This document shows positions 1 through 49,748 of a stretch of 64,000 nucleotides of DNA, piece after piece. The stretch covers positions 3,038,001 to 3,102,000 of the forward strand of contig NEEC01000010.1 of NCBI GenBank assembly GCA_002189035.1, read 5' to 3'. The position numbers and the translations under genes were made by a program. Origin of the DNA: Utricularia gibba. Taxonomy: Eukaryota; Streptophyta; Magnoliopsida; Lamiales; Lentibulariaceae. Under the pieces are notes generated by a model that was not told the DNA's origin, ran no database searches, and worked only from the letters and a program-made list of their open reading frames with translations. Each line of letters starts with the position of its first letter. Position 1 is the first letter of the stretch.

Positions 1-2306
1 TCTGCGCCAGGATTTTCTAAAACTTCCTTCATATGGCAGGATGGGCGGTGATCGTGATGATAACGTGGGGACTAGATGGGCTGTGCTTATCGCTGGTTCA
101 AGTGGTTACTGGAACTATCGACATCAGGTATTGGGGCTCAAGGAATCTTTTATCTGGAATTTCTACATTTTTTGGTACTTTTTGGTTACTGTTTCTATGC
201 CCTAAATTGTGGGTAGGGTACCTTTGGTCAGCTCGTTTTTGTTTGTTGTTTGTTGTTTGTTTTGCGGAACGTTGGCTGATTTCATTTTATTTTATTTGCT
301 GTAGGTTTGTAGAAGATAGATGCTTTCATATTCCTGAATCCAACGCATCCATTACACTTGCTTTGCAGTTTTTGGCGGAGTGATGAATAATGCTTGTTTT
401 TTTTTTCTTTTTGATCATGTGGTTTTATTGTTTGGTACAGGCTGATGTGTGCCACGCTTATCAAGTGCTGAAAAGAGGTGGTCTTAGAGATGAAAACATA
501 GTCGTTTTTATGTATGATGACATTGCTTATGATGAAGAAAATCCGAGGCAAGGCGTCATCATCAACAGTCCTCAAGGCGAGAACGTCTATACTGGGGTCC
601 CAAAGGTTGTTGACAAAGTTTCGAATTTAGTTAGTAGGAGCATCATTTACTTCATACACTACTGATCTTCCAAGATACAGGATTATGTTGGAATAGATGT
701 TAACGTCCACAACTTCTTTGCTGTTCTTCTTGGGAACAAATCTGCAGTCACTGGAGGTAGCGGGAAGGTCATCGAAAGTGGCCCTGATGACCACATATTT
801 GTGTTCTATACTGATCATGGAGGTCCTGGGGTGCTAGGTTCGTATCTATGAAGCAAGCTTACTTCCTTGAATTTTTCTTTACTCCTGGGATATTATCTAA
901 GACATTCCTGTTATTTTACGTATCAGGGATGCCCACCTATCCCAATCTTTATGCTGATGATCTAGTCAATGTTTTGAAAATGAAGCATGCTTCTGGGACA
1001 TACAAGAGCTTGGTGAGATAACATTTTTGTGGTAATTGACTGTTGCTTTACATTCAATGACACGCTATGCCTGACTTCTCCACTTGGTCGTTCAGGTATT
1101 TTATCTTGAGGCATGTGAATCCGGAAGTGTTTTTGAAGGCCTTCTACCTGAAGGCTTGAATATTTATGCAACCACTGCATCCAATCCTGTAGAGAATAGC
1201 TGGGGTACCTATTGCCCAGGAGATGAGATCAGTCCCCTGCTGAATATGATACCTGTTTGGGCGACCTTTACAGTGTTTCCTGGATGGAAGACAGGTATAG
1301 ATGTGCATGACTGAATAGCTATTTACCCGCCACATGAAATGCCCCATCTACTTATTGTACTAATTAATTTACACATTACACTTCAGTGATCGGCATAATC
1401 TTAAGACTGAAACATTGCGCCAACAGTATCATCTGGTAAGATATAGCTACACAAGTAGTGCTTCCAAGAATTTTGATTAGGATGATGCTTGTTATTTTCT
1501 CTCGCTGAATCTTCACTGAGCAACAAGATTGATGCTGGCATTTGCAGGTCAGAGCACGGACAGCCGAAAGTAATTCTCACTATGGCTCCCATGTGCTGCA
1601 ATATGGCGATCTGAAGCTGAGCGTGGATGAACTTTTCTTGTACATGGGTACAAATCCTGCGAATGATAACGTCACTTTTCATTGGCAGCTGCCTCACAAT
1701 GGCATTAGAAAATCATCAAAAGCTGTTCATCAGCGTGATGCTGATCTCTTGCATTTCTGGGATAAGGTACTTGAACAAATTATCCTCCGCCATCTGCATC
1801 CAAGATTTCTGGTCCTCATGGCGGATTCTCCATGACAATGCTTTTCAGTTTCGTAAGGCGCCAGAAGGCTCCACTAGGAAATCAGAAGCTCAAAAGCAGC
1901 TTATGGATGCTATGGCACACCGGGCTCACATCGACAACAGCATCATGTTCATCGGCAAGCTCATTTTCGGAATCAACAAGGGTCCTGAAGTCCTGAAGAC
2001 CGTTCGGCCTTCCGGACAGCCTCTCGTCGATGACTGGAATTGCCTCAAATCAATGGTAATGCACTCCATTTCTACACCCCCATTCCATTCTCCTGTTGAC
2101 ACGATTCCTCTTCCCTTCCACAGGTTCGAATATTCGAAACACACTGCGGTTCACTTTCGCAATACGGAATGAAGCACACGCGATCAATCGCCAACATATG
2201 CAACGCCGGCGTAACGGAGGAACAGATGGCGGAGGTGTCATCTCAAGCCTGCGCTAGTGTTCCGTCCAACATTTGGAGTTCTACCGCAAGAGGATTCAGT
2301 GCTTGA
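1..2306 (+). CDS. VPE: Vacuolar processing enzyme (legumain, C13 cysteine protease), 5' end outside window
   Basis: This is an asparaginyl endopeptidase of the vacuole that matures storage and vacuolar proteins and can act in programmed cell death. I read nine exons: 1-127, 441-605, 681-837, 927-1012, 1096-1294, 1387-1435, 1548-1766, 1849-2055 and 2124-2306. The first visible residues lie just before the conserved [20 protein letters not shown], so the signal peptide and start are missing. The catalytic His is in DHGGPG (exon 3) and the catalytic Cys in EACESGS (exon 5). The C-terminal prodomain ends with the stop at 2304-2306. Exon 5 is out of frame from about 1234: after YCPGDEISP the family sequence ([12 protein letters not shown]) continues in another frame, and one more C in the four-C run at 1234-1237 would restore it. 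Family assignment is certain; whether the break is real or a consensus error is open. Confidence 0.93.
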
Positions 2307-2775
2307 CGTTTGACAGAAGGGGGGCTGTCGTTCTCTCAGAGATAGCACATGTATGTATTTCTATGTATGTATTTCACTCGTATGCTTTATGCCTGATGTT
2401 CAGGTGGAAAAGCTCTCGCCTTGGTTACTGTAAATGAGGTACGTGTTTCGTCATCGCTTGTGATTCGCTTAGTTTGTGCATCGAAGAGAAGTGATGATAA
2501 TCAATGGAAAAGCAGTTCAGAATGAGTGGTATAGTACAAAAAACACGGCAAGCCAAATAATCTGGAGGTAGTAGTAGTAGTAGATATGGTGATCACAAGC
2601 CACAATCCGAAGACGACAGTGATGAATGGTTAACTATAGTACGTACGCTACGGAGGAGGAAATCCATGAAGAGATTCGTAGTAGAATCAGCTAATCACAC
2701 CACACCGGAGAGATCTGCGCGGAAACAAATCAAAGATCATCGCACGCCGGAGCCAGAGAAGCTTGGAGGAGAAGC
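2307..2775. other. Convergent spacer between VPE and the AG-peptide gene
   Basis: The stretch holds the 3' untranslated regions of two convergent genes. A short GTA trinucleotide microsatellite lies near 2567-2583. No further coding sequence is visible. Confidence 0.6.
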
Positions 2776-2973
2776 TCAGATCCGGAGAGCATTGAAGAAG
2801 ATGAGCGAAAATAGGGTGGTGACGAGTCCAAGCGCGATTGAAGGAGCGAAAATTCCGGCAGCAGATTCAGGACTCGGAGCAGGCGCTTCCTGAGCCACGG
2901 CGGTGCCGATGAGAGCGAACACAGCAAGAATCGCCGCCACGAACATGAACCCGCCGGCCTGGATCGCCGCCAT
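2776..2973 (-). CDS. Arabinogalactan peptide (AG-peptide), GPI-anchored
   Basis: A 65-residue single-exon gene for a short cell-wall/plasma-membrane proteoglycan backbone. Residues 1-27 form a signal peptide ending in GTAVA. The mature core QEAPAPSPESAAG carries the AP and SP dipeptides expected to be hydroxylated and O-glycosylated. A hydrophobic C-terminal tail (LGLVTTLFSLIFFNALRI) follows small residues, as for a GPI-attachment signal. Length and order match the AGP16/20/22/41-type AG-peptides. A TATA box lies about 80 bases upstream of the ATG. The exact role is unknown; members of the family act in tip growth and wall signalling. Confidence 0.9.
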   Translation of the reverse strand: MAAIQAGGFMFVAAILAVFALIGTAVAQEAPAPSPESAAGIFAPSIALGLVTTLFSLIFFNALRI

Positions 2974-3052
2974 TGTACGTACCTTTAGGGCTTCTCCTTT
3001 TTTACGGGTGGCGAAGGGTTGGAAGGACGTGAATTATGAGGTTTTTGCGGTG

Positions 3053-3060
3053 TATTTATA
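3053..3060 (-). promoter_or_regulatory. TATA box of the AG-peptide gene
   Basis: TATAAATA on the minus strand, 80-87 bases upstream of the AG-peptide start codon, which allows a 5' leader of about 50 bases. Confidence 0.7.
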
Positions 3061-3750
3061 GAGGAAACAACGATACGGGCAGATGCTGCCGCGGTGTCCG
3101 GGCAGATTAAGATCCTACAGGCTGGCACATGATACGACGCCGCACCAGCTCTGAGGACATCATCATTTCTTGACCCAACAGCAATTATCCTCTAAACCAA
3201 TCACACCTTGACACGTCTACCTCATTTTTGGCAAAGCCAGTTGTACTTACTTTTGATGGTCTGAGAACCGGCACGTCCATTGATAATTTCATTTTTAAAT
3301 TACTTCCTACTACACAAAATCCAGGATGCTGTAAGAAAGACGTTTTTTTTGTACTTTTTTTTTAAAAAAATATCATTAAGAAAAACAAAAGAGACTTTTC
3401 ATAGTGAGTGTATTCAATGAAGCTCTGCATCTGGTGTGACAAACAAGTCCAAGAAACAACCTGTCGCAAGCACAACACCGGAATCTTCATGATTAAAATG
3501 GGGACCGGACCCGGACCGGACAAGACCGGACCAGTCTTAATGACAACAAACTAGAGTTTTGAAACGGAAGGGGCTACTGGGGGAAGCTATCAAGAAAGCT
3601 TAGCTTGCAGAGACATGGGGACTAGCAGCAGCATCTTGCTTACAGCTTCAATGGCCAAAAGGGAACTGAAACTAATAACCAGCATGTTGTGTATTGGTTC
3701 TAGGCGCCTTGCTTTTTTCACATTGCCAGGTTTATTCCTGCGCATGCTCT
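3061..3750. other. AG-peptide upstream region and DUF866 3' flank
   Basis: Non-coding. It contains A/T runs near 3340-3390 and a small degenerate GGACCGGAC-type repeat at about 3500-3536. The right part is probably the 3' untranslated region of the DUF866 gene. No gene is visible. Confidence 0.5.
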
Positions 3751-5051: not shown

Positions 5052-5646
5052 CGCGCAACGCCCCAAATCCAACCTCCTGTCTGATGAAGCTCCGGTTGAA
5101 ATGCAATTAAATTATGTACTAAAATTCACTTTCAATTTCATTCCAAGATTCCTATCTCACTACCCACCAAGCCAAGGTTTCCTAAAACCTGTTAAATCAG
5201 ATAAAAATAAATATTAAAAATTCAATACTAAAATAAAATAAATTATTCATAACCCAAATTAGCGTGTTTCAGAAAAGTAGTGCTTTGAAAATTTTTCTCC
5301 ATTCTCAACACCTTACAGAAAGTGTTTGGGAAATGTAGCTTTTACCAATCTGAGATGAAAGAAGGATGGACCAAAGACTGGTTTCTTCTTGCAGACAGCC
5401 CCCAATAGGGGGAGTTCCTGGGTGCTTTCTGATAATGGTGATCACACAGGAAGCTTGATTCTGGAGAATGGATTTTGAACAAGGCATGCAAAGCAAATGA
5501 TGCGGGAGGTGAGTCATGTGGTTTCGAGCCAACATCTAACCAAGCAGATTGGAACCGACAGCAGGAGGAAATCCCACCCTCGTATTGTAACTTGAAACAT
5601 GGAGCAAAAGTAGCATTCGGGATAAGCAAATTCAGAGAGAAGAGAT
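5052..5646. other. Head-to-head spacer, DUF866 gene / neprosin-like gene
   Basis: Presumably holds both promoters and leaders. A/T-rich near 5100-5300. The reading frames visible here do not resemble known proteins. Confidence 0.5.
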
Positions 5647-7231
5647 ATGGAGCTCACATGGATAGCAGCAGCTCTGACGATGCTTTGTGCAGCAGCATTG
5701 ATCAACGGAGAGAGATGGGTCGTTAGGAGCATTCAGGTACTTGTTGAGAAGTTTCATTACTGATGAAGAACGAGGGCCATGTATTTTGTTAATCAGCTTT
5801 TGCCTTCAATTTCAATTGCTAGAGTGGAGATGGACATGTCATAGACTGCATAGACATGTACCGGCAACCTGCTTTTGAGCATCCTGCGTTGAGAGATCAC
5901 AAAATTCAGGTAGAGTTTGAATGAAATGAAGAAATGCTTGCTATTGAAACTAAGAATCACATTCGAACAGCTTAATCCCAGCTATGGACAACGGAAGGAA
6001 ACAGAAGTCTTCGGAGACTCACCAGTGACAGCAACTTCTCAAATCTGGCACAAGAATGGAACTTATCCAGAAGGAACTGTCCCGATTCCGAGGACGAAGA
6101 TAGACAATGCAACAAGAAAGTATCCAACATTTGCACAAGTCAATGACACCAAAATGACAACAAACCTTCTATTGGTCAATCACTTAGTAAGTGTAAAACG
6201 TGCTCACAGCTTTGTTGGATCTATCTTTACACACCAGGATGAAGTTTCTTTGCTATGCTTCAACTTTCAGATGGCTATCCTTATGAGAGCAGGCTATGCA
6301 TATCAAGGAGCTAAGAGAGACAAACGTGTGGAACCCATATGTTGAATTGGATGATGAATTCACTACTTCCCGAGTGGCTGTCAAGAGCGGACCTCGCACT
6401 TATTTTGAAGCTGTAGAGTCAGGATGGACTGTAAGTGGCAAGGTTCACAAATGCATGTTGCATAAGAAAGACAAAACTAGGATTAAGATACTCACAGTTA
6501 CTGTGCTGAATCAAGGTAAATCCCAGGGTTTATGGCGACAGGCAGACTCGTCTATACGTTTACTGGACAGTAAGTAATCTTGCTCAACCTCCTCCACTAT
6601 GGAAGCAAGGGATTTCATGCTTGAATTTTCTGGATTTTGTTCACCAGGTTGATGGCTCGAAGGAAACCGGCTGCTTCGATCTGAAATGCCCCGGTTTCAT
6701 TCAAACAAGCAGCGAAATCGCATTGGGGGGAGCTTTGGCCATAGATCTCCCATCCGAAATCATCGTGTACATTCACAAAGTTAGTCCTCTTCAATCATAA
6801 TCATCACAAAATACTGGATAATCGGTCTTCTAACTGGCCTAAAATCAAAGGACATTTTCACGAACACCTGGTGGGTGCGATACGGGGAAAGAATCAACGT
6901 GGGTTACTGGCCGGGCGATCTTTTTGGGGCGCTGAGTGGGCACGCGGAGATCGCGCAATGGGGTGGCGAAGTTTTCAGCCGGAGAGTGGGAGGAAGGCCG
7001 CACACGGCGACTGGAATGGGGAGCGGGAATTCCCCAATGGGATATTTGGGAACTCCGGCAGCGTGAAGAGAATGAGAGTCTTGGAGAATGACTTGGTATT
7101 GAAGCGGCCGCAGTGGGTGAATACCTTTTTCCGACGAGTATGACTGCTACGACGTCTACTACGTCCATAATTACGTTCCAGAACCTGAGTTTTACTACGG
7201 CGGCCCCGGCCGAAAACCCAGATGCCCATGA
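5647..7231 (+). pseudogene. Neprosin-like protein (DUF239/DUF4409), frame broken at three places
   Basis: The gene encodes a secreted protein with a neprosin activation segment followed by the neprosin peptidase domain (glutamic-peptidase type in characterised members). Seven exons: 5647-5736 (signal peptide), 5823-5909 ([19 protein letters not shown]), 5971-6186 (SQIWHKNGTYPEGTVPI), 6271-6430 (NVWNPYVELDDEFT), 6516-6569 (VYGDRQTRLYVYWT), 6648-6779 (GSKETGCFDLKCPGF) and 6851-7231, ending GGPGRKPRCP. Splice sites are good, but the frame breaks inside exons: a net +1 (or -2) at about 6316-6323, one G short at 7025-7027, and one T too many at 7126-7130. AATAAA follows at 7261. Either a young pseudogene or an intact gene with consensus errors; two of the three breaks lie in homopolymers, which favours the latter. 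Confidence 0.88.
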
Positions 7232-7560: not shown

Positions 7561-10500
7561 TCATTTCTGGAAGCTCCCAAATTGGTTTTGATGGTCGTTT
7601 AGGCTGGAGAAAAAGTTGTCAGTTGTTGATCCTGATGCTGAAGCAAACCCTGGTCTACCCATGCCGTAACCAGAGCCCATGGCTGCACCCATGTAAATCG
7701 GAGGCAAAGGTTGTCCCTTTTCAACATCGTTTAATCCAGGGGCGATGCCAACATCTGCTAGGTTCACCTTCTTTGCTGTAATGACAAGTGTAATAAGATT
7801 CTTCAGACATCAAGATTCCGGATGCTGCCGCTTCAAAAAAAGTGGAGTTCAAACGAACACGAGCAATGGGTTCTGACTACTTACGTGCAGTTATGTTCAG
7901 ATCAATTAATCCACGACTCAACGAATCAGCCCATATCCCAGACTTGACTTGAAATGTGTCTTTCTTGGGTGCAGGCGTTGACTTTGTCTGGCTTGGAGGA
8001 TCATCATGCCGAGAATCTTTGTCAGGTTCTGCCGCTGAAGAATATGTATTGGATGCAAATGAACCGAAGGTGTCAGCCTCATCGAAATTGTTCAATGGCA
8101 AAGAGGTGAAAGGATCCACTATGCTGCTAGTTTTATCAGATTCAGGAGCACTGGAGTATGGCTGAGGAACTGGATTTAGAGTGCCGAAAAAGTCAACTGT
8201 TGTTGAAACGACAGGAGTAGCGTGCGAGGAAAATAAATCAACGCTCTGCAAAAAGAGAGTATGAACATTATGGTGAGGACAGGAACACTGCACATTTAAC
8301 ATGGTACACACCGGCTCCACAGAGACATGAGCAAATGCACAAACGAATATAAAAGACACTGCCAAAGCTACGAGAAAAGATGAATTAGCCATGCCATGTG
8401 AGAAGCTTTACCTCAGGAGCAGAATGTTTCTCTACCACTGCTTCAGGTGTTGCGGACACAAAATTGGCATCAGCAAATAAATCAACATCTGACGGATTTT
8501 CCAAAGAAGCAGATTTTCCTATTGGAGCAGCTAAGGGTTCACCAAAGAGATCAATATCTGGGAAAGACGGGCCACTTCGAGAATTTCCAGGCGGCGCTGA
8601 CACCAATCAACAAGAGACACAAGGATATCAGTTTGCAGTAAAGTTGCATATCCATGGGTAAAATATATTATCCAGGTACACTAAAAAAAAAAAGGCATAA
8701 CATTTGCACCAACAAGGAAGCATGAGGCTTAGATCATGCTGAGATCAGAAGTCTAGACGAGAAGAAAATGCAGGAGAAATCATTCAAGCGGTAAAATATT
8801 TCTGGTACGAATCACAAACCATAACTGCTGTCATCAGATAATATTTATGAGCCAAGATTACAAATTAGCAAATTCTTCCGTGTTCTTGCAGAAAGGAAGC
8901 AGAATAGAACTGCTTAATGCATATTTTTCTTTGGTATTTTTTTTTTATGTACGACAATGCTTTCAACAATTTACAACATAATTGAGCCACTTAGAAAAAA
9001 ATCGCTTACTTAATGAGGCAGAGCCTCGAGGATCAAAATCATCTGTATCTTCATCATATTTGCTTCCTAATGCATCTGCTGAAGTAGCTGAAGTGTGTTC
9101 CTGCGGCTTCTTCGAACTCTTCAATTTTCCTGAAACCCCACCCCAGAAGAAGTTTTTTCCCTGCTGCATTATGTTTTTGAAGTTGAGAGCAAGTAAAAAA
9201 AGAAACAGTCAATTCATATTCTCAATATAAATTGATCTCACTCGTACTAATTTTCATCAATCCTCATTAAGTGGTACAAAAAAAATCAAAATATTTTTGA
9301 TGTTGATGTAGGAGTATACTAGGTAATACTACTGACCTTCCATAACGGGGAGTTTCAGTTTTCGGCTTGACTCTCTTTTCATATTTCTCTTCCTCATATT
9401 CATCTGAATCCTTGTAACTATCTCCATACCCTTTGTCACCAAAGCCCCCATACTGGCCACTACTTCGAGAGTTGCTACTACTGAACGACGCTGTTCCAGA
9501 CTTGTACGTAATTCCAGATGATGAAAGCCCAAAGTACCTGAAGCATGGCAGTTAAGCCGAGAAAATGATACCAACAGAAGGGAAGACGCCAAGCCAAAGA
9601 GGCTTCTGACAAATAATCCTGTTTCTCAATGCAAAAGTGCACTTACTTATCACGGTTTGTGGCTGCTTTGTTCCTTACTTCTTGTATTTTGTCTTTGTCA
9701 TTGAGAAGAGATACAATAGTTTCAGCTTTTTTTCGTACATTAATTCCCAAATCCTTCCCACTGGGCTCAACATACTCAAAACTTGCTAGGGACTACAGAA
9801 CCAAACAACTGCTTAGGTATCGGAAGGAAAAAAATAGAGAAAAATACAATCTTTCAGCCATGCAGGTCTTCAAATGGTAGAATTAACTATGAAAGGATTC
9901 AAAAGAAAGACATACTGATATCTGAAAAGTGTGCTCTATGATTTCATCAACAGCACGTTCAGATCCATGGGCCACCAAATACTCAACCACAGTTAATGCC
10001 TAATGAAGAAAAAATACCACCTTCCCTGAATTTACTGTGCCATAGATATAACAAGATGTATATAGGAGAATTGCAAGCAATTACCTTGTACACTAGGCGC
10101 CAATTCTTTCCAGTCTCAGTCAACCTCGTCCAAAGAACATTCATAATCATCTGGCATTCCGAGCTGTGACACGCAAGGCAACTAAGTTCATACAAAAGAA
10201 AGACTCAAAAAAGACCAATTTGGCGAAAAAAATGAAAGTACAATTTTTTTGTGGCCTGTGCTATCTCTGCCAGTGCTGTGCCATGAGGACCCCAAGGCTC
10301 TTCATCTGTGGCATCCAGCACCTGAAGTTCGCAAGGAAAAAAATCACATAAAAGGCTGCAACCCGATAAAATTAAACTGCTCGGACTTTCTAAAGTCTAT
10401 TTGCGTGAGCAATACTCACTGTGAAAGTTACAGAAAAAAATTCTATGGAATTTTTGGCAAAACATACTATCTGCATTAATCAATTCATCCGATTCACAAG

Positions 10501-11863: not shown

Positions 11864-11881
11864 TCAGCTGCTCAAGCCGGC
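11728..11881. repeat. Diverged direct duplication covering the PPR gene 3' end
   Basis: Segment 11728-11804 and segment 11820-11881 share a series of blocks in the same order: a TTTCTGTGTAT-type block, GCTTCCTT, ATGTTCG and TCAGCTGCTCAA followed by CCGG. Copy B contains the complement of the final PPR codons and stop. Copy A lies beyond it, in the 3' untranslated region, and has about 17 additional bases. Confidence 0.75.
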
Positions 11882-13816
11882 CCAGTTTTTGAAGGCGATC
11901 AGTGCATCCATTTTCCTAGTGTTTCTCTTCCTCAGCTTAGATATTCTCAGCTTCTTGTGTCTCTCCATGAAGGCTTGTTTGTACCTCCACTTGTCAACGA
12001 AGATTTTCATCTCGAGAGATTTTTCAACAATTTGCATTGCTGCATCAAAGAAGCCACCCTTGACCAAGGCATATAGAAAAGCATCAATCAAACTAGCATC
12101 CAGTTTAAAGGATTTTTCTCCATCGCCAGAAATGGATTTCTTGACATCATTCCAGAGCAAAAGAACGCTGAAGTATTTCTCTTGTGCCGTGTAACCATGA
12201 ATAAGGGATAGGTATGTCTGCCCATTCGGCTCAAACCGCAGGAAAACCATCCTCCTGAAAGTCCTCCTTGCATCCTCCATTCTCCCTGCCTTGCAGAAAG
12301 CATGAATGATAGAGTTCCAGTCATGAGTTGCTATTTTGATCCTTGGATCCTCAATGACTTGGTCCAGAAATGCAGCCATCAGTTCAGGGCGGTGATGCTC
12401 GGTTAGGCCAGTCATGATCGTCAAGTAACAACCTTTCAGCTCTGATATCCTACTTTCTTTCATGTCTCGAAACAGTGAAAACGCAGATTGAAAATCTTTG
12501 CAGGACATGGCTGATTCAATAAGAGCATCATACATCCCAACGTCCAAGGCTAATCCTAAGTCACTAATTTCAGTTACCAACTGAGCAGCCTCAGCTATTC
12601 TCCGTTCTTTGCAATAAACTTTGAGAATCGGAATGTAGACACCAAGTCCAATGGAAGCTCCTTGAACATTCAGTTCCTCGAGGATTCCATGTGCCTTGTC
12701 TGGAATACCTAGAGTTATGCAAGCGCTAATAACACCATATCCAAAAGACCTTTCAACTACAACACATGATGACTCAACTTTTTGAGATTCAATGATCAAG
12801 TTGCAAAGACGCTTGTAGTCACCATTTTGGATAAATCCTGTTAAAATTTCATTATATGTTTCAGGACCAAACACTTCTCCCCCCTTCAATGCGTTCAGTA
12901 TAGTATCTGTAAGTACATCAAAATCACCAAACTTCACACGTCCACAGATCAAATTATGAAAAAATTCACTTTTGTTAGAGATACCAAGTCTATCTACCAC
13001 ATTCTCTAAGTCACTCACCTTCTCATTAAGACCCTTGCGCGCATACAAATATGCAAGTAGTCCAAAAGTAAGTTCATTAGGCTCCACGCCTAAAATCGAC
13101 ATGATCTCAACGATCTTCTCAGCATCAGTAACAGATTCAGCTTCATGGCAGTAATATTTCATAGCTGCATTACAAGCAGCCAAGTCTGGCTTCATGGAAT
13201 CCAACTTCTCATCCAAAGCAACCCTACAACTCTCATGAAAAACGCTCAAAAAACCAGAAAAGCTACCATCGTTTCTGCATATATCAAGAAGAATGCTTCC
13301 CCACATTTCAAACGGCATAAAAAACCGATTAGCCAGCAAGGCCTTTACTAATGCAAAAGCGGGGGCGCCAGTGTTGGCTGCCCGCATCGAATCCAAAAGT
13401 TGCTTCACACTTCCAAATTCCAAAAAATTTGGGTTCTTTTCCAACGCAAAAATCACCGATGCATATGCCCTCTTCAGATTGTGCACATCAAGCGTTGACG
13501 ACAAATGCGCTATTAAAGAGTTGGTCAGGGACTTGCTGGGAAACGAAGAGCAGCTTGCGAGCGTCTTGAATGATTTCCATGCCTCGTCGGTGTTTCCACT
13601 TACGAGAAGCTGTTCAAGTGACGCTTCAAGATTCAATTGTTCAGCCGGGGAACACACGTTGGGTTTTCCCCTGGATTGGGCTGCAGCCGGTTCCGCAACC
13701 TGAGCTACTCTTCTGGAAGAAAAAAGCGAGGGCTGGAGAAATGAATACAAGCTTGGAATCTCTGGTTCCGATGAGTACATCCGCCATGATAGCAGCCAAA
13801 AATCCCTCCTCCGCAT
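11864..13816 (-). CDS. P-class pentatricopeptide repeat protein, probably organellar
   Basis: An uninterrupted 650-residue reading frame, as is usual for PPR genes. The first 40 residues are rich in Arg and Ser with few acids (MRRRDFWLLSWRMYSSEP), like a mitochondrial presequence. Tandem 35-residue helical pairs run from about residue 90 to 620, for example LTFGLLAYLYARKGLNEK, YIPILKVYCKERRIAEA and WNSIIHAFCKAGRMEDARR. I see no E, DYW or SMR domain, so it is P-class, whose members bind organellar RNA for stabilisation, splicing or translation. It resembles the Arabidopsis At1g69290-type PPR proteins from memory, which I could not check. Its target cannot be read from the sequence. Confidence 0.92.
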   Translation of the reverse strand: MRRRDFWLLSWRMYSSEPEIPSLYSFLQPSLFSSRRVAQVAEPAAAQSRGKPNVCSPAEQLNLEASLEQLLVSGNTDEAWKSFKTLASCSSFPSKSLTNSLIAHLSSTLDVHNLKRAYASVIFALEKNPNFLEFGSVKQLLDSMRAANTGAPAFALVKALLANRFFMPFEMWGSILLDICRNDGSFSGFLSVFHESCRVALDEKLDSMKPDLAACNAAMKYYCHEAESVTDAEKIVEIMSILGVEPNELTFGLLAYLYARKGLNEKVSDLENVVDRLGISNKSEFFHNLICGRVKFGDFDVLTDTILNALKGGEVFGPETYNEILTGFIQNGDYKRLCNLIIESQKVESSCVVVERSFGYGVISACITLGIPDKAHGILEELNVQGASIGLGVYIPILKVYCKERRIAEAAQLVTEISDLGLALDVGMYDALIESAMSCKDFQSAFSLFRDMKESRISELKGCYLTIMTGLTEHHRPELMAAFLDQVIEDPRIKIATHDWNSIIHAFCKAGRMEDARRTFRRMVFLRFEPNGQTYLSLIHGYTAQEKYFSVLLLWNDVKKSISGDGEKSFKLDASLIDAFLYALVKGGFFDAAMQIVEKSLEMKIFVDKWRYKQAFMERHKKLRISKLRKRNTRKMDALIAFKNWAGLSS

Positions 13817-16800
13817 ACCTCAATCGTCACCTGCAGATCATGGAACTCGACCGAGGGATTTCCGCTACTCCAAATTTCGGTTGGGCCGCAGACTCAGAAC
13901 TCCAATGTAAGCAAATACAAGAGGCCCATCATCCGGCCCAATTCCTTCTCATTTCTCTTTGAATTGAAACATCTCCCATTTTCCTTCTCCAAAAGTATTT
14001 CATGTTTCTAAATGATGAAAGTTTATTAGAAAAAAGAAGAAATTATTAGGATCGATGTATGTGCGTAATTGATGATTGTGGTCAAAATACATCAAAAAAC
14101 AAAGACGTAAACTTTGATGACTCAAAAGCCCGAAATAAAAACCAGATCTAATCAACACATAGGACAAATTGATTTTATATAATAAGATAAATCAATATCA
14201 TTAACACAAAATCATATAACCAACTATATTGTCAAAGGCACATATACTATCAAAATGCTTACCCGTATACCCATCATCCACACATTACCCTTATAATCAT
14301 TAAATGTTGTTTGATAATATAATATAAAAGATTTATACCTAAGTTTATACATAAATCGCTATTTAATTAAATAACATGTGTATGACATATTTGTATAATT
14401 ATACTATTAACATACTCATTTTTTTGAGCATATAGACGATATACATAAATGAAGAGTATATCAAACGAATTCTTATTGAATAATCGTGAACAAATGATAT
14501 TTTTCAATTCACGATTGATTTGATTCGTGGAGCTTGCCGAACACACAACATAAAAGGAATGGTGACCGTACGTCAGGCTTACCGGACACGAAGCATGGGA
14601 AATCCTGCACTTGGCGCCATGTATTTCAGTGTTGCCTAATCAAATCATGATCTGGGGTGCATTGATGATGATTCCCCTCCTGAGCAATGGATAGTGGGAG
14701 TACGTGCGTCCCCTGTGAGGCCCTCATCGGGCAACCCGATGGAATCCAATACGGCTGCCCAAGTCGGGAACTTGATCGCAACAGCGGCCTAACCACGCTG
14801 CGAGCCAGAAACCCTCGCCCCAGATGCAGATAATGACAATGCGGGATGAGAATGGACCTCAGAACTTGGAGAATGATTTCCTGCACCAGACAGAGCGGAG
14901 TTCTTCTACTTCTTCGGACGCTGCGGTGCTCCAGATAGCCGAGGAGACCACCCCTTTAGACCTCACTGGTTTCTACTTTTTTCAATAAATAGTAGCAGTG
15001 CAAGGCGACGGGTAGGCGTCTGTTGTCAAGAAAAAGGAGTAGGGCAGGGTGCACGGACACTGGTGTAGGTATCTGCTTTCCAAATGGAGTGAAGTGAGCA
15101 TAATAATCAAACGGGCACGCAAATTATTGCATTGCTTCTTCTTCTTCTTCTTCTTTCACGGGCTAACTGCTGATCCTGCTGCTCCGGGCCCCTGCCATGC
15201 CATCTTTTTCAAAAGACGTTCAGAACCCACATTCATTTCGTTTCGTTGTATTGTAGACCGGAGATGGCCCCATCCCCCTCCCCTCCCGCAGACACAGACG
15301 CAGAACCAGAGCAAAAATGCTCATCCAGCCATTAAAAACCCCGCACCATTATTCGCTCCCCGCTCGTACGACACACGCATTCATTCGTTAACCATTTTTC
15401 GAGGTACTCGCTGCGGAGACCCACCTCTGGAGGGAGACTTCCCTTTTGCAAGCACACGAAAACGGTTCCAGTCATCGCTCATCTGTTAGATGGCGCCCAT
15501 AAATGTATTGGAATACTAAATTAATATACGGATGGAGTAAGCTGATTAAGTAATTAGGGTTTTGATTAGATCTCATCCATTCACTAATTTTATGAATTAG
15601 ATTATATCTTACCTAACTGTTCTTGTTATTAAAACAAAAACTATATCATATCAGAAAATGAAAATAGAATAATAAATATATAAAAAATAATGAAAATAGA
15701 ATAATAAATATATAAAAATTATGAATTACTAGTAAACGATAGTGTATAATTTTTTTTAATATAATTTATATTTTTTATGTATTTAAAATTCACGTGTGTA
15801 CTCTTTGACTCATTGAATATTGAATTTCAACACTTCCTATATAAAATAAGATTTCTCATTTCCTGATGAATCCCTTTAGAGTAGTTGATCAAAATGACTG
15901 ATTATAAATAACTTTAGCACATGGGATTATTGTAATTACAGTTTTTTGTTTTTATATTTTCTAATTTTTTGTCAGCAAACAAAATGAATCTATAAATAAC
16001 AGGTTGAGTAACTTTCAAACCTATGAAGTATTTGGTATAGTTTCTTAAAAATCAATTTTCGATATTATAAAATAAAAGATGACATTGTGGAGAAACGTTT
16101 TTAAATCTTTATATATACAAATTATTTATATTTGATAATAAAATTAAATCTATAACGTTTTTTCAACTATTCCAAATTCAAAAGATGAAATCATTCAAGT
16201 TAAAACGAACAACATCGTATTTTTTAATTTGAACCCGTAAAAAACATTGTAATTGAGGAAAATGTGTATGAATAATTACAAATTGTTATAACTAAATGGA
16301 AAAAAATGAGGTCAAATAAAATAATAATATTATTATTCTGGAATATAGGCTTAAGATATTTCTATTTTCAGAGTCAGCAAGTTGACATTGGGAAGTTTGG
16401 AATGATATTTCTTGAGAAATTGTACAGCTGTCGTACCTCGTTTCTGGCTAAAAATCCCAAAGTGAATATTGTTTTGGATAAGAACAAACAACCTCTCCCT
16501 TCCACGTCACCCTTTCTGATCCCCTCCCCCCTCTCTCTTATTGCACACTTCTGCAAATCACAACGTGCGAAAATGAATTTTTTTTTTAATATTTTACTGA
16601 AAGCAAATCAAAATTCGATTTGTCGGCCGACTTTCCCAAGCCTGATTATTTCTTTTTCTAAAGAATACAATTAATTTAATAAATTACTGAAATACCCCCG
16701 TAAATTAGGATGAATTTTGGTAAATAAATAAATAAAAGGAATTCCAGTGGGGGCCACCACAAACTTTCTAATGTACAAAAGTATATACATCGGGGTCTTG

Positions 16801-17042: not shown

Positions 17043-18115
17043 TTAGGCCCACCCGAATTCCTGATCCGGATCGACCCGGCTGCCCCCCCGCTCCAGAGAG
17101 TTCTCCTTCCCCAGCTTCGCGTAGATTCTTTCGCGGAGCTCTCGGCCGGACTCCACCCTCTCCACGGCGGGCTCTTCCTCGAAGAGGGGCCCCAGGGGTC
17201 GAACGCGGTGGTGGGGGGGCGGGCTTTGCGGCCGTGGATCGGGGTCGTCGGGAGGCTGAGGAATCCGGGTCGGGTAGAAGGCGGCGACCCGATCCCGACA
17301 CCCCAGGCCGGTGGGCTCCCACTGAGGCCCAGGTTCATTTTCATCTTGTGGATGTGCAACCGCCCCATGGATCCGGCGAGTTGGCTCAGGTTCATCGAGT
17401 ACTCCGGCGGGGACCCGGTGGTCGGTGGTGAGGATGGAGGGGAGTAGAGCGCGGATTTGGGCGACGCGCCGAATAGATCCTGGGGCGGGAACCGACCCGG
17501 GGAAGCTTCCGGGGACGAGTACGGCAGAAGCCGGAGCTGCTCCGGGGTGTGGGCGAAGAAGCACACACGGCGTCGGCAGTGGGTCCCATCCTTGCAAGGC
17601 TGCGTCCGGTAACGCGCCGGGTGAAGCCAGCACTCGAAGACACCGTGCGCGTACTCGCACGAGTCGCCTCTCTTGCACGCTCCCTTACGGAAGTCAGGGC
17701 AGGCGGTACCGGAGTAGTGGTACTTCCGTGGGTCCCTCCGCCGCGCCTTCTCACCGGGATGCGCAAACGGGCACGCCGTCCAGTCATGGGACCTCGCCAG
17801 AGAGCATTTCTTCACCTTGAACTCAAACATCCGGAAGTCGTCGCACGAGAAGGCGTCCACCGGAATATCAAAGTCCTCCCCATCCACTCCCCCAATGTCG
17901 TCCAGGTTCGACGGGAGATACCGCTGAAGCGCGAGCAGAGCCGCAGCCGCGTCAGGGCTCCCAGCGCCGGAAGAGAAACCGCCATGCGGAATGGGAGGCG
18001 ACTGCACCATGGCCGCCGTCGGATCTTCTAGATAATGGTGATCCCATACAGGGATCTGAACCGTGGGATGAAACCGAAGCTGATTTCCAGTCATCATCAT
18101 ACTCTCAGAGCTCAA
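17043..18115 (-). CDS. CCCH tandem zinc-finger protein (plant RR-TZF type), frame break near C-terminus
   Basis: A plant-specific arginine-rich tandem CCCH protein of the AtTZF/OsTZF group, which shuttles between nucleus and P-bodies/stress granules, binds RNA and modulates ABA, GA and stress responses. Fingers at about residues 104-119 (C-x5-H-x4-C-x3-H), 139-157 (C-x7-C-x5-C-x3-H) and 174-189 (C-x5-C-x4-C-x3-H). A Ser/Pro-rich middle follows. The gene is intronless and GC-rich. The uninterrupted frame would run to 17012, but the conserved tail ([20 protein letters not shown], then ENS and a final FGWA) lies in the next frame and stops at 17043-17045. One extra base in the four-G run at 17186-17189 (C on the coding strand) joins the two. 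Confidence 0.93.
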
Positions 18116-21100
18116 GCGTTCCTCTCCTCTCCCTCAGTTGTTCACTCACTCTCAACCGGATGTCATGATCTCCATGAATTCGCGAAGGGGAGGTTGCAAT
18201 ATAAACTGTTGCAGGTTAACCACGGTCAGATCACATAACCATGGTTAGGTTAGATTGTCCACCTCTGCCCCTCCCTCCACTACATCCAGTACCCAGTAGC
18301 CTCGACAGGTGGCCTGGCACATACCTAAATCTTTCCCTTCACATTTACTTCAACTCTTCAAAATGATCTACTTTTGCTATCCCCATTTATTATTGGCATA
18401 AAAAAAACCCCCCTTTTTCCCTCTAATTATTTTTCTATTTTTTACTAATTAAAAAAAGAAAGAAATTTCAAGCTCAGACGACAATCAAGACCAGGGCAAT
18501 TGTGTAATTATTATTATTTCTTAGTAATTAAAAAAAGCAGTTGGGGGGCGGAGGAATCCAAAGTACGTGGAAGTTCATGGATGAGTTCGCCCCCCAAATT
18601 AGGACCACACCCAACCCTAGCTCCGGGATTCATCGTGGGCCCCGCGGCGCATTTTAACCCTCTCCACCCCCCTCTCTGTATTTAACCTACCCGTACGCCG
18701 CCGCTGCTCCCTGTGGACGGAACCTCCCCTCTCCTCCCCCCTGCTCACCGTCCACGTGGCTGTCTGCCCTACCGGGAAAATGAAAAATCCTTCTTTTTAT
18801 TTACCAAAATGTAAATAATTAGATTTATTTTATTACGTAATTATCGGGTATCTTCTTTTTTCACCGTGTAGATGCTTCTAGAGGCTTCCTTTTTGGGGGA
18901 ATTCAGGTACCGTACACATAACCAAACCAAACCATCTCTTTAATTAATTAAATGCTAATGAGTGTGGGTTAACCGTCCCAGAGCCGTGCAAATTGCAATT
19001 ATTTAGAGCCCAAATCCTCCATCTAATGACGGGTCAACTTGCCTAATACCATCCCACATCGACTATCAAAGTCATTTCGAAACTCCCCTCGTACTATAAA
19101 TATTACTCCTTGCTTCGTTTTTAAAATTAATAATTTTCAATATTATTCTTTTATCGTGAAGTATTTGTTTGTGTAAAGTAATCATGAAGTATTTGTTTTT
19201 TTATGTTATTTGAATGGAAAATACTTTTTAAACAGTAGGGGCAAGTGAGGGAGAGGGGACGTGATATTACAATATTTGCGAAAGGGAAATTATTACAACG
19301 GCTTTCATAATTCCAAATAGGGACATAAAGTAATTAATAAATAAAATTTGTGCGGCAATCGCGCCCTCACTTTTGAGATTTGGAGATAGACCGACAACGT
19401 CATTTTTCTAGAATGGACCATTAATATATAATAAAATAATGCAATAATATCTTTCCATTAATTGCATTTCCACCCCCCTCAATCTCCCAAATTTGGATCC
19501 AAACCTCCTAACCCCCCCCCCCCCCCCTTCCCTTTTGCATTATCAGTCCTTTTTTTTATTTTCATAAAAAAAAAATTCTGAAAGTGTAACGATCCGTCCT
19601 GGTTTTACTGGATTGCTTCAAATGCCCAACCTCCATTGTTTTATATTATTTACTACTGGAGAAAAGTCTTCATGCTAGATTATATTATTTCTATTTAAAT
19701 ACATCTCTTCTTATATTCATAATTAATGTGGGATAATGTCATAAGACTCATGATCTTACATTTTATTTTTATTTTAAAATAATAAATAGATGGGATCGGA
19801 TTTTAAAAATAATGATTTAGATATAATAAAAAAAGGAGGTCGGGATTCAATAATTGGGCACGGGAAAAAGATGATAACATAAATTTGGTCTAGGACAAGA
19901 CCAGCCATGGACCATGCTTTTTATCGATACATCACAACTGCAATTTTTTAAAAAAATTTTAAATTTTTCTTTAGGACATAACTCGACGTTATGAAATGAT
20001 GGAAAGTGATGGCGCACGTTAATTAGGTTTCAGCGTTTTCGTAGCGTATTCATGAGACTTGTCCCGAGCTTTTTAAGGGGTCGTGGCTAACGTGTGCAGC
20101 ATGGTCGGTTCAAGTCATTTCCGGCCGGGCACTAATTAATTAATTATCTTCGGAACCCGACCCGAGATCGAGTCTACTGGGTAATTTCATTTATTTTTTT
20201 AATAATGGATTTGGATAATGTGATTAAGTAATAATTCAAGGAAGTGACCAAAATTAAAGCATGTGTCACCCTATTCCACAAAAAAATAAAAAGAAAAGGG
20301 TAGGTCACGTGGCGGTCATAGATCACGTGAGGTGTGGGCAGTCGCTGTCTGGGTCTGGGAGTGCACCGTACACGTGTACCGCGTCTTGGTATTGGGACAG
20401 GCGATGACGTGGCCTCGGGGTTTCGGATTTGATTGGGACTTGGAACCACCCTTCCTTGGCACCATCCTCTTGTAACCCGTCAAAAACAAATATTGATTTT
20501 CTTTTTTTTTTTATTTTCAGATGGTTGGATATATGAATATCTAATTAAATGTCTCACTTTGTGATGCTGGGAGAGGATAATTATTGAACTTCGAATCAAT
20601 ATTTTGAAAATGTCATTTAGGTAATTTACAACCAATTATATTATTTTAAAATACTAATTAAATCTAATCTGGTGTTCGGGTGGGCGGAACCGGGTTCGAT
20701 GGGTGAGCCGGAAGGGAGGGCGGACGTGTCATGAGATATCTTGGGGGAGTGGTGTGGTGGTGACATTATTGATTGATCCGAATCCGGGATCGGGATGGGG
20801 ATATTATTGCGACCAAGGAGAGGCTGATGTGCCTCGCCGGGTCCTAATCCAATTCAATTATTAATTATTATTTGACGCCACGCCACCACTCCAACGGTGG
20901 CAGGGCATCCCATCCCATCCCATTCTGGATTCTACCGCTCTCCCCTTCTTCTGGTTTTACGTACGGTGCCTGACTGCCTGGTGGTGAAAATGGATAAGTT
21001 GGAATCGCCCCATAATTTAAATACAATAAATTATTTTTAAGTAGCCCGGCCCCTCAAGCGTCCACGTCCCCCAGGTTCTTATCCAAAGCCTCCCCCCCAT

Positions 21101-28898: not shown

Positions 28899-30030
28899 AT
28901 GGAGGCAAGAACAAGAGGGGCAACTAGAAGTTCACGGAATCATCCAGGGGAAGTCCCAAATTGGATCTTTATTGCAGGCAGTGCCCTGCTGAGTGCTTTG
29001 TCAATTCGCCTGGGTTATAAGCTCAAGCAGGTTTCTGATGCTAAACAAACGGGGAATGGTAATGCGAATTCAAAAGGTGTGCAAATCGATTCATGTGATT
29101 TGTTTTGGGACTACTGTTGGTAGCATTTGAAAGCTGCACACTTTGCAGTTAATGGGAAAGCTCCTGATGAGAAGACGCCAGGGAAATGCAATGTGCACTC
29201 AAATGCCTTCCCCTTCAGACGAAATGAAGATGGTTGCTTCAACTGTTGCCATGGTATGGCTTCTTCAATGCATAACTTGTGTCTTTCTTCTTGTTGCTAT
29301 TGCCTTATACCTGTCATCCACATTAACAAGGATGCAGAAATGTAACAGAAGTAGCAGAAATGGCTCTTCCCCTTGTGACTGTTCCAACTTGTGAGTTCAA
29401 CAGAGAGACTGGTGTCATGTTTTCCGCTTCTCCAGACATCCTGGAGCTGCCCCAGAAACCCTTCAACCAGTCAAACTGCTCAGATTCTGTCTCGGAATCA
29501 GGTTCTGATATTTTCACCAAGCGGGAGGTCATACAAAAGCTGAGACAGCAGTTGAAGCGACGAGATGATATGATACTAGAGATGCAGGATCAAATTGCGC
29601 AACTTCAAAACATTCTCAGCACAGAGCTTGCAAACTGTTCCCATCTTCAGTCTCTGGTGGACGCTGCCAATAGAGACTTAGTGAACTCTGAAAGTGAAGT
29701 TCAGAAGCTACGAAAGGTAATTGCGGATCACTGCCTTGGTCATACAAACCCCGGTGGCAGCCCCCCATGGTTCCTCCCTGGGCTGTGGAGGAGATCAATG
29801 GTCATCATGCCAATGGTTACACCGATTCAGAGAACGATTTTGGCTCATCGGAGAGAGTTAGAGAAGGGGAAAAGATTGAGATGCTGAAGAGGGAAGTTCG
29901 AGAACTGAAGGATTTGATTGAAGGAAAAGACTACTTGCTACAAAGCTACAAGGAGCAGAAGTCGGAGCTCTCAATGAAGATCAAAGAGTTGCAGCACAGA
30001 TTGGATTCTCAACTTCCCAACATTTTGTAG
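28899..30030 (+). CDS. Plant membrane-anchored coiled-coil protein, function unknown, one frame break
   Basis: Exons are 28899-29076, 29149-29253 and 29331-30030. Near the N-terminus is one hydrophobic segment (WIFIAGSALLSALSIRLGY), followed by a Cys-rich patch (CFNCCHG). Two heptad-rich coiled coils follow: FTKREVIQKLRQQLKRRDDM onward, and EKIEMLKREVRELKDLIEGK to the end at QLPNIL. The layout suggests a membrane-tethered scaffold; I do not recognise a biochemical function. After HTNPGGSPP the frame is lost at the six-C run 29761-29766. One further C restores SPPMVPPWAVEEINGHHANG and the last coiled coil. Reading the interval as a 44-base intron is unlikely because that is shorter than plant introns. 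Confidence 0.75.
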
Positions 30031-38992: not shown

Positions 38993-38998
38993 AATAAA
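38993..38998 (+). terminator. Polyadenylation signal of inhibitor copy B
   Basis: A canonical AATAAA about 80 bases after the stop codon. Confidence 0.5.
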
Positions 38999-39210
38999 GT
39001 GTCTGTGTGTTCTCATTCTCTCCCGCCGTGTTTGAAGCTTGAATCTCAAGTTCATCTGCTAGTTTCTTTAGCGCCTGCACTGTTTCCTAAAACAGTCTCA
39101 GACTCAAATCATGACACGCACCACGAACTAAATCGATAGGATGGAATCATTTTTTGGTACACAGAAACGTAAACAATGTTGCTGGGATGGTTTCTCTTTT
39201 TCGGTTTTTG

Positions 39211-44708: not shown

Positions 44709-46219
44709 AGCGAGAACAGGTAGCGATCCCCCTGAATAAAGCCGCCGCCGGCAACTGTAATGCAGATGCATCTTCTTCTTCTTCAGTATGTGGGTGACAT
44801 TTAGTATTTCACAGTTTTGTAGGGGCAATAATATAATTTCCAATATTATTAGTAACCTCCTTCCCCCAGGCCATGGTTTTCCGTACCTTTTTTCGGGACA
44901 CGTCATCATCACCGCCGTTGCCCCACCTCGTACGTACGTGATGTCCCCATGCATGCAGAAGTCAATGAGGTTGACTTCAACCAGCTTCAGTATTTATACC
45001 AAGAAAAACATGTTAACGTACGTGATGTCCCCATGCATGCAGAAGTGATTGGATTTTATCAATCAAAAACATGTTAACAAAAACACGACTAAATCAAAAA
45101 TAGATTTAATCTGTTTACATAATATATTTTTAATATTTTAAAATATAATTAAAAATTATTAAATTCGATTCAACACATTTTTTAAAACCATGGTATAGAC
45201 GCACTACTGTGTAGCCTTAGTCGATATTGTTCGTTTTGGAATGAATCTACTACGAGCACATGCCCCTAATTCACATTGTTTGTGATATAAAAACTTCCAC
45301 ATGAAGGATGCCATTGTTACCTTATAACACTTTGGTTAGTTTATCGCATTTTGACCGTAGGCCTTTCCTAAAATAGAAATAAGCTTTCTATTGGGTTAAG
45401 TGGTAGCTTCTGTGTGTCTGAAACATTTAAAATACATAGAAAATATTAGTACAACTGCAGGCAAATGAAGCTGCATGTAATAGCTGGCAAGCCCAAGTGA
45501 ACTAACTGAAATTAGGGTTCTAGAGATGTAATATTTGTAATAATTGCTGAGAATTCATGAATCGGGCTCGCGATGAGGTACAGCAGCATGGCCAGGTCCT
45601 GTAAGAAAAGTACAGTAAATTTTTCTGGCTCGGTAGATCGTGAAATTCACATTTTCTATTTTTACATTATTGCGGCTGTTGTATTGCATGTGTGCTGTTC
45701 AAGAAGTGGACCGTCATCTTTGGATATTTCGCTGCAAAAGAAGGTTGCGGAAGCCTCCATAGTAAGTTCAACATGCTTTTGAATTTCTGGGATGGCACAA
45801 AGGGTTATGGCCTGATGTAGGGTTTGCTTACAGCAAATCAGGGTTTTCTCGATCTCTCTGTGAGAGAGTTTTTCACCTTGGAGTTTCTTATATCACGCAT
45901 TAAATAGCTAATGGATGGTCGACTAAAGTCAAAAGCATAAAGGGTGTTTGCAGTGATAAAGGCAAAATCTAAGTATATGGCTTGGTTAGCTTAGCCTGGC
46001 TCGAGAACAACAAGATGTACAAAGAAGACATTTTTATTGAGCAGGAGGAGGCATCCAAGATACATGGTAAAAGTTTGAAGTTACATTATACTCACAGTCG
46101 ACCTTCAAAGCCTGGTGTGATTTCTTGATAGTACAAGTTTTGAGCATTAGATGAGTACTCCTTTGTGGTGGCTGGAAAAAGAGTGGTAATCCAAGAGCTC
46201 ATAGAATGAGTGGTCGGTG
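44709..46219. other. Spacer between phosphorylase and EMF1
   Basis: Contains the phosphorylase polyadenylation region, the 31-base direct repeat listed separately, and AT-rich sequence from 45.06 kb. A short frame at 45573-45782 contains a protein-like stretch (GPSSLDISLQKKVAEASI), but nothing around it supports a gene. Confidence 0.45.
44932..45078. repeat. Direct repeats with ACGTACGT and CATGCATG palindromes
   Basis: A 31-base sequence starting ACGTACGTGATGTCCCCATG is present exactly at 44932-44962 and 45016-45046. A second unit, AAAAACATGTTAAC, occurs at about 45003-45016 and 45065-45078. The arrangement is a small tandem duplication rich in palindromes. Confidence 0.8.
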
Positions 46220-49200
46220 TCACATGTTTTGTCTACCATTCTTTCTGGGAAGGTTCTTTGTTCTTGCATTCTTGATCTTGTGTTGCTGCTGTTGGGAATC
46301 ACTCTGTACGCAAGTGTTGTGCGTAGTAGCCTGATTGTGAAACGAACCTCGTCTCACCCATTTTCTCTCGAGGGCCTCCTGGGGTGGTTTTTGTATGGAA
46401 GCATTTCTCTTCTTGAATTTCAAGGCTTTAGCAGTTATCATGTATTCATTCCTGGTATCAGGAATGGTGAAATCCGCAGGGTTCCTGTTGAGAACACAGA
46501 CTTGGGGCGCGCCATCATTGGGTGATGATGGTTGCTTTGGATTGTACTTTTCAATTGGCTGAAAGTCTCTAGATGGCGCTGGCATTTGAGCTGCAAACAT
46601 AAAAGAAAGGCTTCAATACAAATAAGAAGTTCCATATGAAAGCACCTTTCGCAGGGAAAAAGAAGGACCTGGTAAAGGAGCTCTGTTGAAACTTTCACCA
46701 GAAAATGGAGCGCCGTTGAGCGAGTGTGGGAGTTGCCTTGAGGGTGGAAACGGCGAGCCAATAAGCAGCTGGTTCTTGTTTTCAGCTGGTGTTAAACTCG
46801 GGGCTGGATGAGGGGAGAGGAAGGCTTATCAGAAAAACTACTATAACCACCCGGATATGGAGATCCATATGCATTTCTCAGATTCGTCAAAGACAGCAAC
46901 TGCATTGCTGGGATGTCAACATTGGAATAACCATCCAATACTCCAACAGAACTTGGGATCCTTCCTTCTTTCATGGCAGACGCATTGAGAAAACCTGTTT
47001 TCTCGATGACTACGTTCTTTCCCTTGCTGAATTGCTCAGGGAGTGGATGCAAAGGAACACTATTAGGAGGAACGGGGCAGTTCTGGCTAACAGTCACAAC
47101 GAAAGGCATGCTATTCCTCAATGGATGCCACTGTAAATCCGCTCTTTCAATGCTTCTTGGCCCTGATAAAACGGGATGGGGATCTAGATAGCCTGCATTG
47201 TACTGTTGGATTGGCACCAGAGGGGTAAAAAGCCTGAACTGGCTGGTCCCTGGATTGCTTGCATCAGACTGGAAATTTTTTCCATGGAAAAATTTCAAAA
47301 CACTCTGACCAAAGACCGGATTCTGGTTTGCGAAACTTGAGGCATTCTCCATGCTGCAAAAGGGAGTGTTGATCTGAACCCCATCCGCACAGAGAGCACG
47401 AGATCCTTCACTGGAACCAGTCATCTCCTTGGGAGAAAACTTCTGCCTCGAATTCTCGAGTGCTCTTTCTTGTTGATTTTTCGCAAGGAGCTCAACTATT
47501 TCCATAGGAATATCATCTACGGTTCCTCCAACCCCTGCAGCATTGTCTCTGCTTTGGACACTCCGCGACCGGGAGACATCACTGTTTCTTTTGCCTTCAA
47601 CAGCATTTGCTTCAGTCCCACTAAAGGACATATTCTGAAAAAAATGAGTAAATGTAAAATATTACTACAAATACAGCTAGAACAAGTTCTAGAGCTGCAT
47701 AATAGTGGAAAGAAAATCATGGAAGAGAGTATCTGCTTACCATAAACTTTTCATGGAATGAACCACTCTTCTGAATAGCAGATGGCAACAGGCTCTCTTG
47801 GTTCACGGTTGTTTTCTCGACAATCGACTCATTCAGATCTGGAATATCCCTGAGCTTCAAAAGCTTTCCATTAAGCAACTTCCTTTCAGCACCACTGCAG
47901 CTGCTTAGAGAGAGGTCTAACGGGACCTTTTCTTGATTGAAGCGCTGCCCTGACATGCCAGCATTCGTTGCCCTCCACAAGCCATCATGCATGGAAACAT
48001 CAGCAAACTTACTTTTTGAAAAGGTAACTGTTTCTCCTCTGATTGCAGAAGCATTTGGCGCTGTACAATCAAAACTAGAGTTAGAAGCTCGGAGATGTTT
48101 TCTTAAAGCGTCTGATCCTGCAGCATCTAACTCAGGCACATTTGGCAAAACCGTTCTTTTGTCAGCATCCACCTGCCTCTGCTTTCTGCTCTTATGGAAA
48201 ATTTTGTTCTTCTTGTGCTTAACTCGCTTAAAATCTGAGGCAACTGGCATACACAATCTTTCTGATGGAACTATTTCAGTTTCTGAATCAGAAATTTCTA
48301 CTCTCCGACCACTTTTCTGAGGATGCACATCCACTTTCAATCTTTTAGCTTCCCCCATAGGACAACTTGAATCCAAATTTTCTCGCCTGTTTTCCCAAGC
48401 CATCCATTTTTTTCTATGAGGATTTTGCAAGCCTTCTCTATCCTTTTGAAGGAACTCTAACTTAGCATCAGCTTCAGCCGTCATCGCTGTGACATGTGTT
48501 TCATTGTATGATGCATGCCTGTTTATCAGATGCCCAATTGCTGATTTTTTTTCCACCTCCATTATATCAGCTAGAGAACGCAGCTTCTTTTTTTTTCGAG
48601 TAAGTAGTGGAACAAATCCATCACTGCTTCCGGATGATCCATCACCTGGTCCTTCAGCTCTCGTGAAAGGGCACTCTGAACAGCATGCAAGAAGTATTTC
48701 ATTCTTACCGGAATACTCAAAGGGCTTCAAGAAAAAAAAAATGATCAAGTTACCTTTAGAGAAATTGGGGAGTTGCCGATTCCAGAATCGAACATTTCCA
48801 TACGGATGCCCACCTTTGGAAATCCCCACAACTCCTCGTTCATTATTTCCTGCACAAACTTTCCAAGATTCACTACCAAGCATGTGAGAAATGATCAGCC
48901 GGAACAAAATAGTCTCCCCAGAAGGTAATGCATCACAGATTCTAACAGACTCCATGATTATACAAAGTGCAGTAACAGCATAGTACATACCGTTGCCTTT
49001 TGTAATCGATAACATAAAACAGCATTTATCTTCAGCAACGGTTTTCTGCGAACTAGTTCCAGCAATATCATTCTGGTTTTCAGCAGCCATATCTGAACCA
49101 TTCTTCTCAGTGGTGTTTTCTGGAATACAATGTGAACACTGCCACCAACGGAATTTGGGAGCTGATAATGGAGGTAGATTGTATACTGAGCCATCAGTAT

Positions 49201-49748
49201 CCAGTGAAGAAAACGGCGAATGTGTCTTCAAATTTTTCTTCCTCACTTCGGCAACAAACCCACTGCATCATCAAATAAAATGTTTCCATAAGTTTTCTAT
49301 TGGCATCTTGCAGCTATGCTACAGGAAGCCATATGTAAGAAAAAAAACTACAAGCCATAATACATCAACGACTAAATGGTAAGCACAAGATATGCCAGAT
49401 CACATTCACAACATTGAAATATATGGCCCATTGCAGCCTGCATTTTGAACTAGTTAGAGCACCACCACTGCATGGCTGAATCTGATGGCTAGATCACAGA
49501 CAATAAATAAAGTTAAACAGCCAGTCCAACCAATCAAGAAAAAAACTAGAAAATCTACAATTGAAAATTGCAAGCGTTTACCGCATAGAGAAATGCTCTT
49601 GCACTGGTATTTCGACCTCTTCCATAGGGCAACTGATGTCTATAGCAATTGAGTTGATCTGGATAAGCGACACTACAGACTCTGATGCAGAAGGAGGAGA
49701 ATCAGATTTCATTGGATGACCTTCCGCAGATGAATTGCTTTTCTCCAT
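46220..49748 (-). CDS. EMF1: EMBRYONIC FLOWER 1 (EMF1)-like Polycomb cofactor, frame break in last third
   Basis: A plant-specific Polycomb protein that represses flower-homeotic and seed genes. Exons: 49582-49748, 48991-49262, 48754-48849, 47741-48675, then about 46646-47634 and 46220-46590. The N-terminus holds SIAIDISCPMEEVEI and HFSMRGFVAEVRKKN; the middle has KKKKLRSLADIMEVEKKS and PLDLSLSS; the later part has DDIPMEIVELLAKNQ. The frame from 47634 stops at 46792-46794, but EMF1-like sequence (SLTPAENKNQLLIGSPFPPS) continues in the next frame. One extra base in the four-G run at 46800-46803 restores it. The last exon carries VCVLNRNPADFTIPDTRNEY and stops at 46220-46222. The donor before it is uncertain (46669 or 46646, the latter needing another base). 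Confidence 0.88.

Follow-up and report, generated by a model that had tools for sequence, protein, structure and literature searches.

One-base frame breaks in neighbouring genes of a Utricularia gibba contig are best explained as long-read consensus errors

The one-base frame breaks that interrupt five neighbouring genes of Utricularia gibba are very likely consensus errors of a PacBio assembly made from continuous long reads (HGAP/Quiver). The genes lie in a stretch of 64,000 nucleotides, referred to here as the window. At six positions in this window the genes of the plant are almost certainly intact, and the breaks are an artefact of data quality rather than a feature of its biology. The 516 contigs of the assembly add up to 100.09 Mb, and one of them has a length of 6.82 Mb. 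For the published U. gibba assembly, HGAP at 88x and a contig N50 of 3.4 Mb are reported (PMC5793159), and a further article names a 'Unitig_8 (6.8 Mb)' in the PacBio assembly of this species (PMC8333044). The sequence analyzed here very probably belongs to that published HGAP assembly, and polishing is likely to be the step that failed. Reads of this kind would drop single bases in short runs. Where depth or signal was insufficient, the run would stay one base short in the consensus, chiefly in short runs of G and C, and would occasionally be one base long. In a coding exon this would be seen as a sudden -1, rarely +1, change of frame in an otherwise intact, conserved gene. The preliminary description of the window had attributed the breaks to consensus errors in a noisy long-read assembly, and this is supported by the indels between the contigs C376 and C413, by the genome-wide signature of -1 changes in G and C runs, by breaks of the ohnologs at other sites and by purifying selection. 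One correction to the description is that the decisive pattern is specific to G and C runs.

All seven sites that had been proposed were read in three frames. Real one-base frame changes are present at six of them, starting at positions 1234, 7025, 7126, 17186, 29761 and 46800 (Table 1). Nearly all runs had been described as one base short; this holds for five of the six sites, which are -1 changes in G or C runs of 3-6 bases, while the T5 run is one base long. G and C runs of at least 3 bases make up 5.5% of the bases and contain five of the six sites (P ~3e-6, for sites found post hoc). The break suggested as likely in the epsin-like gene was not upheld. There the frame is open through the site, and a donor four bases further on (TCA/GTAGTA in place of AAG/GTCAGT) joins the next exon in phase. 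No epsin paralog, which could decide this case, was found in the genome. A C16 run lies between genes at 19512-19527 of the window; long G/C runs are thus not always collapsed in this assembly.

Table 1. Frame-break sites and control features in the window
Feature	Position	Strand	Observation
VPE (legumain-like cysteine protease) exon	1096..1303	+	-1 break in C4, 1234-1237
Neprosin-like gene, last exon	7025..7027	+	-1 break in G3
Neprosin-like gene, same last exon	7126..7130	+	+1 break in T5, compensates the -1 break in G3
Epsin-like gene	9347..9350	-	G4; break not required, alternative splice donor keeps phase
PPR gene, intact, in-window control	11864..13819	-	open frame of 651 aa
CCCH zinc-finger gene, single exon	17186..17193	-	-1 break in GGGGCCCC; G4 is 17186-17189
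Coiled-coil gene, last exon	29761..29766	+	-1 break in C6
EMF1-like gene	46800..46803	-	-1 break in G4 (C4 on the coding strand)

In each broken gene the coding sequence can be followed across the break. The frames before and after the break in the VPE gene, when joined, align to Arabidopsis VPE-gamma without a gap, and the next exon (about 1387-1436) is in the post-break frame. The VPE paralog L002, located on contig C4, has exactly one base more at the break site and a single reading frame. The three pieces of the neprosin-like gene score 57.6 and 11.9 bits against Pfam Neprosin when taken singly, with no match for the middle piece; joined, they score 91.5 bits over profile positions 94-214, reaching the end of the profile, and can also be aligned to a solved neprosin. 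The CCCH gene encodes zf-CCCH domains upstream of its break. The exact base of this break is uncertain, since it falls within GGGGCCCC. The EMF1-like gene has no Pfam domain match, and its name was given by recognition only.

Ohnologs were found for three of the broken genes: L064 on C451 for the coiled-coil gene (88% identity), L065 on C480 for the EMF1-like gene (74%) and L066 on C213 for the CCCH gene (70%). Each of them keeps the base that is missing from the window copy. L066 is in frame across the CCCH break site. L064 does not share the break of the window but has two separate -1 breaks, which lie in or adjoin C runs, one of them only a few bases downstream of the window site and in a different run. 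L065 is in frame at the window site and has a -1 change in a C run elsewhere, where the window copy is in frame. Were these breaks real, both coiled-coil genes and the two EMF1-like copies examined would be dead although conserved. Second copies of the window break sites in the assembly were not found, only paralogs at 70-88%. No relatives were found for the viral contigs.

Comparison by segment gave dN/dS values of 0.07-0.41 for the coiled-coil gene, 0.23-0.35 for the EMF1-like gene, 0.13 for the CCCH gene and 0.05 for the VPE gene. The range of 0.05-0.41 covers all computable segments, including those after the breaks. In the short post-break pieces of the VPE and CCCH genes synonymous sites are saturated, so raw counts replace dN/dS there; downstream of the CCCH break, differences are found at 18 of 22 synonymous sites but at only 1 of 71 nonsynonymous sites. 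The substitution pattern shows purifying selection on both sides of the window breaks. The low dN/dS and the CCCH counts imply that the protein downstream of the breaks was under selection until very recently. Apart from their breaks the affected genes are otherwise intact.

Pairs of contigs with identical matches were revealed by the Pfam searches, and with such redundant contigs the rate of consensus errors can be measured in the absence of reads. The loci L067-L072 show that the redundant contigs C241 and C376 repeat chromosome sequence (C304 and C413, respectively) almost exactly. Contig C376 (29.6 kb) and the chromosome-size contig C413 match along 15.9 kb, where they differ by 1 mismatch and 13 one-base indels. 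All 13 indels are at single-letter runs: 11 at runs of G or C that have at least 3 bases in the longer version, and two at A runs. C413 has the shorter copy in five cases and C376 in eight, mostly near the end of C376. G/C runs of at least 3 bases make up 6.5% of this stretch, so that 11 of 13 indels falling there has P = 6e-12. So few mismatches would have P = 9e-10 if mismatches and indels occurred at 5:1. Two alleles differ mainly by substitutions, whereas two consensus calls of one DNA differ by single-base indels in runs. Because one-base run indels far outnumber mismatches, C376 and C413 are read as two consensus calls of the same DNA; that they are an ordinary allele pair is implausible. 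Two of the 13 indels split in C413 an open frame of 341 aa that is found in C376. The comparison of C241 with C304 was rejected as an error estimate, as the 3.4 kb compared contain 16 mismatches, 2 indels and partial tandem copies.

The breaks occur throughout the genome, whatever the function of the gene. Elsewhere, in PPR, UGT, P450 and HSP70 genes and in the ohnologs, 14 breaks were read; all are -1 and 12 are in or beside G/C runs, a tally that was found post hoc and is hence descriptive. The nearly intronless PPR genes have two breaks in 24 genes (46 kb), one in a G3 run (L044) and one without a clear run (L047). Four -1 breaks at G runs are present in the UGT loci L005 (two), L015 and L024. 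The UGT family was rejected as a clean intronless control, since about half of its loci looked split, partly by introns, and only sites read by eye were counted. The loci L018 and L028 looked broken at first, and introns or alternative splice sites restore their frames. The UGT locus L009 has an in-frame TAG at position 1393 in an otherwise well-matching gene, the sole nonsense-type change met. Among the P450 genes examined, namely those with a long exon stopping early, L074, L075 and L076 have -1 changes in G or G/C runs and L077 has one elsewhere; the apparent break in L073 is an intron. The Cpn60 family has too many introns to be used for reading breaks. The cytosolic HSP70 gene L068 has a -1 change in a G5 run near position 1167 (C304:2,236,267), which is identical in C241. 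Such a shared break would be a systematic error or a real mutation or variant, and not a random error. An intact HSP70 gene is located about 7 kb from the broken one on C304.

It had been stated that essential genes of the window are intact. The PPR gene and the phosphorylase exons are indeed open, but the HSP70 gene and both examined EMF1-like copies are broken. Intactness therefore does not track essentiality, and the contrast between essential and dispensable genes carries no weight.

The six breaks of the window correspond to 2.5 per 10 kb of coding DNA, which was estimated at ~24 kb without gene models. In the duplicated stretch C413 has 5 errors per 15.9 kb, or 3.1 per 10 kb of any sequence, a rate that may be inflated as the reads were presumably split between C376 and C413. 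Extrapolated to the ~24 kb of coding DNA, this rate predicts about 7-8 errors, compared with six breaks in the window. The PPR genes have 0.4 breaks per 10 kb. The break rate of the window is thus unremarkable against the C413 stretch and high against the PPR genes. G/C runs of at least 4 bases occur 3.2 times per kb in the PPR genes, 5.9 times in the UGT genes and 16 times in the CCCH gene. The lower rate in the PPR genes is partly due to their fewer runs of this kind, and local read depth may account for a further part of the difference. Given the low PPR rate, either errors are unevenly distributed or the window was hit more often by chance. The low PPR rate, the identical HSP70 break in C304 and C241, and the T5 change, which is +1 and outside G and C, are points against consensus error.

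Real and very recent pseudogenisation, by frameshift mutations in several neighbouring dispensable genes, is very unlikely. Gene loss and turnover are known features of U. gibba, a second genome copy exists for several of the broken genes, and two breaks lie within one exon of the neprosin-like gene, all of which would suit such decay. It would have to strike five unrelated neighbours almost only by -1 changes in G/C runs, and would be expected to bring with it stop codons, larger indels and the loss of splice sites; nothing of the kind was noticed in the five broken genes. Conserved segments are free of stops and dN/dS is low right through the breaks, so that neither relaxed selection nor several kinds of disabling mutation is seen. 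The second copies of the EMF1-like and coiled-coil genes are broken too, at other places, and the coiled-coil gene has no intact copy as assembled. The same signature also separates C376 from C413, which are otherwise identical. We consider it even less probable, to the point of being nearly negligible, that there is no break at all and that the frame is restored by introns or alternative splice sites that escaped notice. This holds for epsin 9347 and for the UGT and P450 loci L018, L028 and L073, but at the six confirmed sites the two frames meet inside a single exon with no more than a few bases between them, leaving no room for an intron, and an ohnolog, a paralog or a solved homologue reads through. 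Programmed frameshifting was likewise rejected, as the ohnologs, paralogs and solved homologues are without the frame change of the window.

The changes may also be thought of as real instability of run length, caused by a mutator state such as weak mismatch repair, or as heterozygous indel alleles of which one was assembled. All changes are in or adjoining short runs; heterozygosity of the plant is possible, and the duplicate contigs could be haplotypes. True slippage increases with run length and should strike long A/T runs first, where almost no breaks occur, although the window has 396 A/T runs of at least 5 bases and 55 such G/C runs. The exon of the EMF1-like gene contains a T9 run that is in frame, the runs at many sites have no more than 2-4 bases, and haplotypes that differ as C376 and C413 do are implausible. 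This makes run-length instability highly improbable. Equally little credence is due to the view that short G/C runs lose single bases by an unusual kind of mutation in this plant lineage, so that many breaks would be true recent mutations; only the HSP70 break, which two contigs share, hints at a common, non-random change.

Consensus error of this type is a known and ordinary kind of artefact and is unremarkable as biology. PacBio data are known to suffer from single-base deletions in runs (PMC4888979), and the breaks resemble these in being one-base changes, mostly deletions, that break frames and are curable with short reads. Quiver is weak in long homopolymers (PMC4853030), and most indel errors in PacBio assemblies of P. 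falciparum are in long homopolymers (PMC5964635), while the errors described here concentrate in short G/C runs of 2-6 bases. As in unpolished long-read assemblies with inflated pseudogene counts, for which short-read or reference-based correction is the remedy (Kastor, PMC12007338; Polypolish, PMC8812927), conserved genes appear truncated or split. Those articles treat small or bacterial genomes; the present case concerns the nuclear genome of a plant, and duplicate contigs and ohnologs, instead of reads, reveal the error.

Should the apparent spread of the errors be real, at about one per 3-25 kb, automatic annotation could cut short or split a few thousand genes or more in this assembly. 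Reads would then have to be consulted before gene loss, domain loss or rapid protein evolution is claimed for this tiny genome, and gene loss should not be called from this assembly alone. A SWIM-domain fragment on the minus strand at 60561-60986 of the window resembles the remnant of a MULE/FAR1-type transposase. The authors who published the truncation of DCL3 in U. gibba used transcripts and 5' RACE to check it. One of the four Dicer-like RNase III loci in the assembly (C213:2761967-2762970) is without a match to the Dicer dimerisation domain, where a weak match could be missed. This check and the agreement of the assembly with the truncation at the level of domains indicate that not every apparent loss is an artefact.
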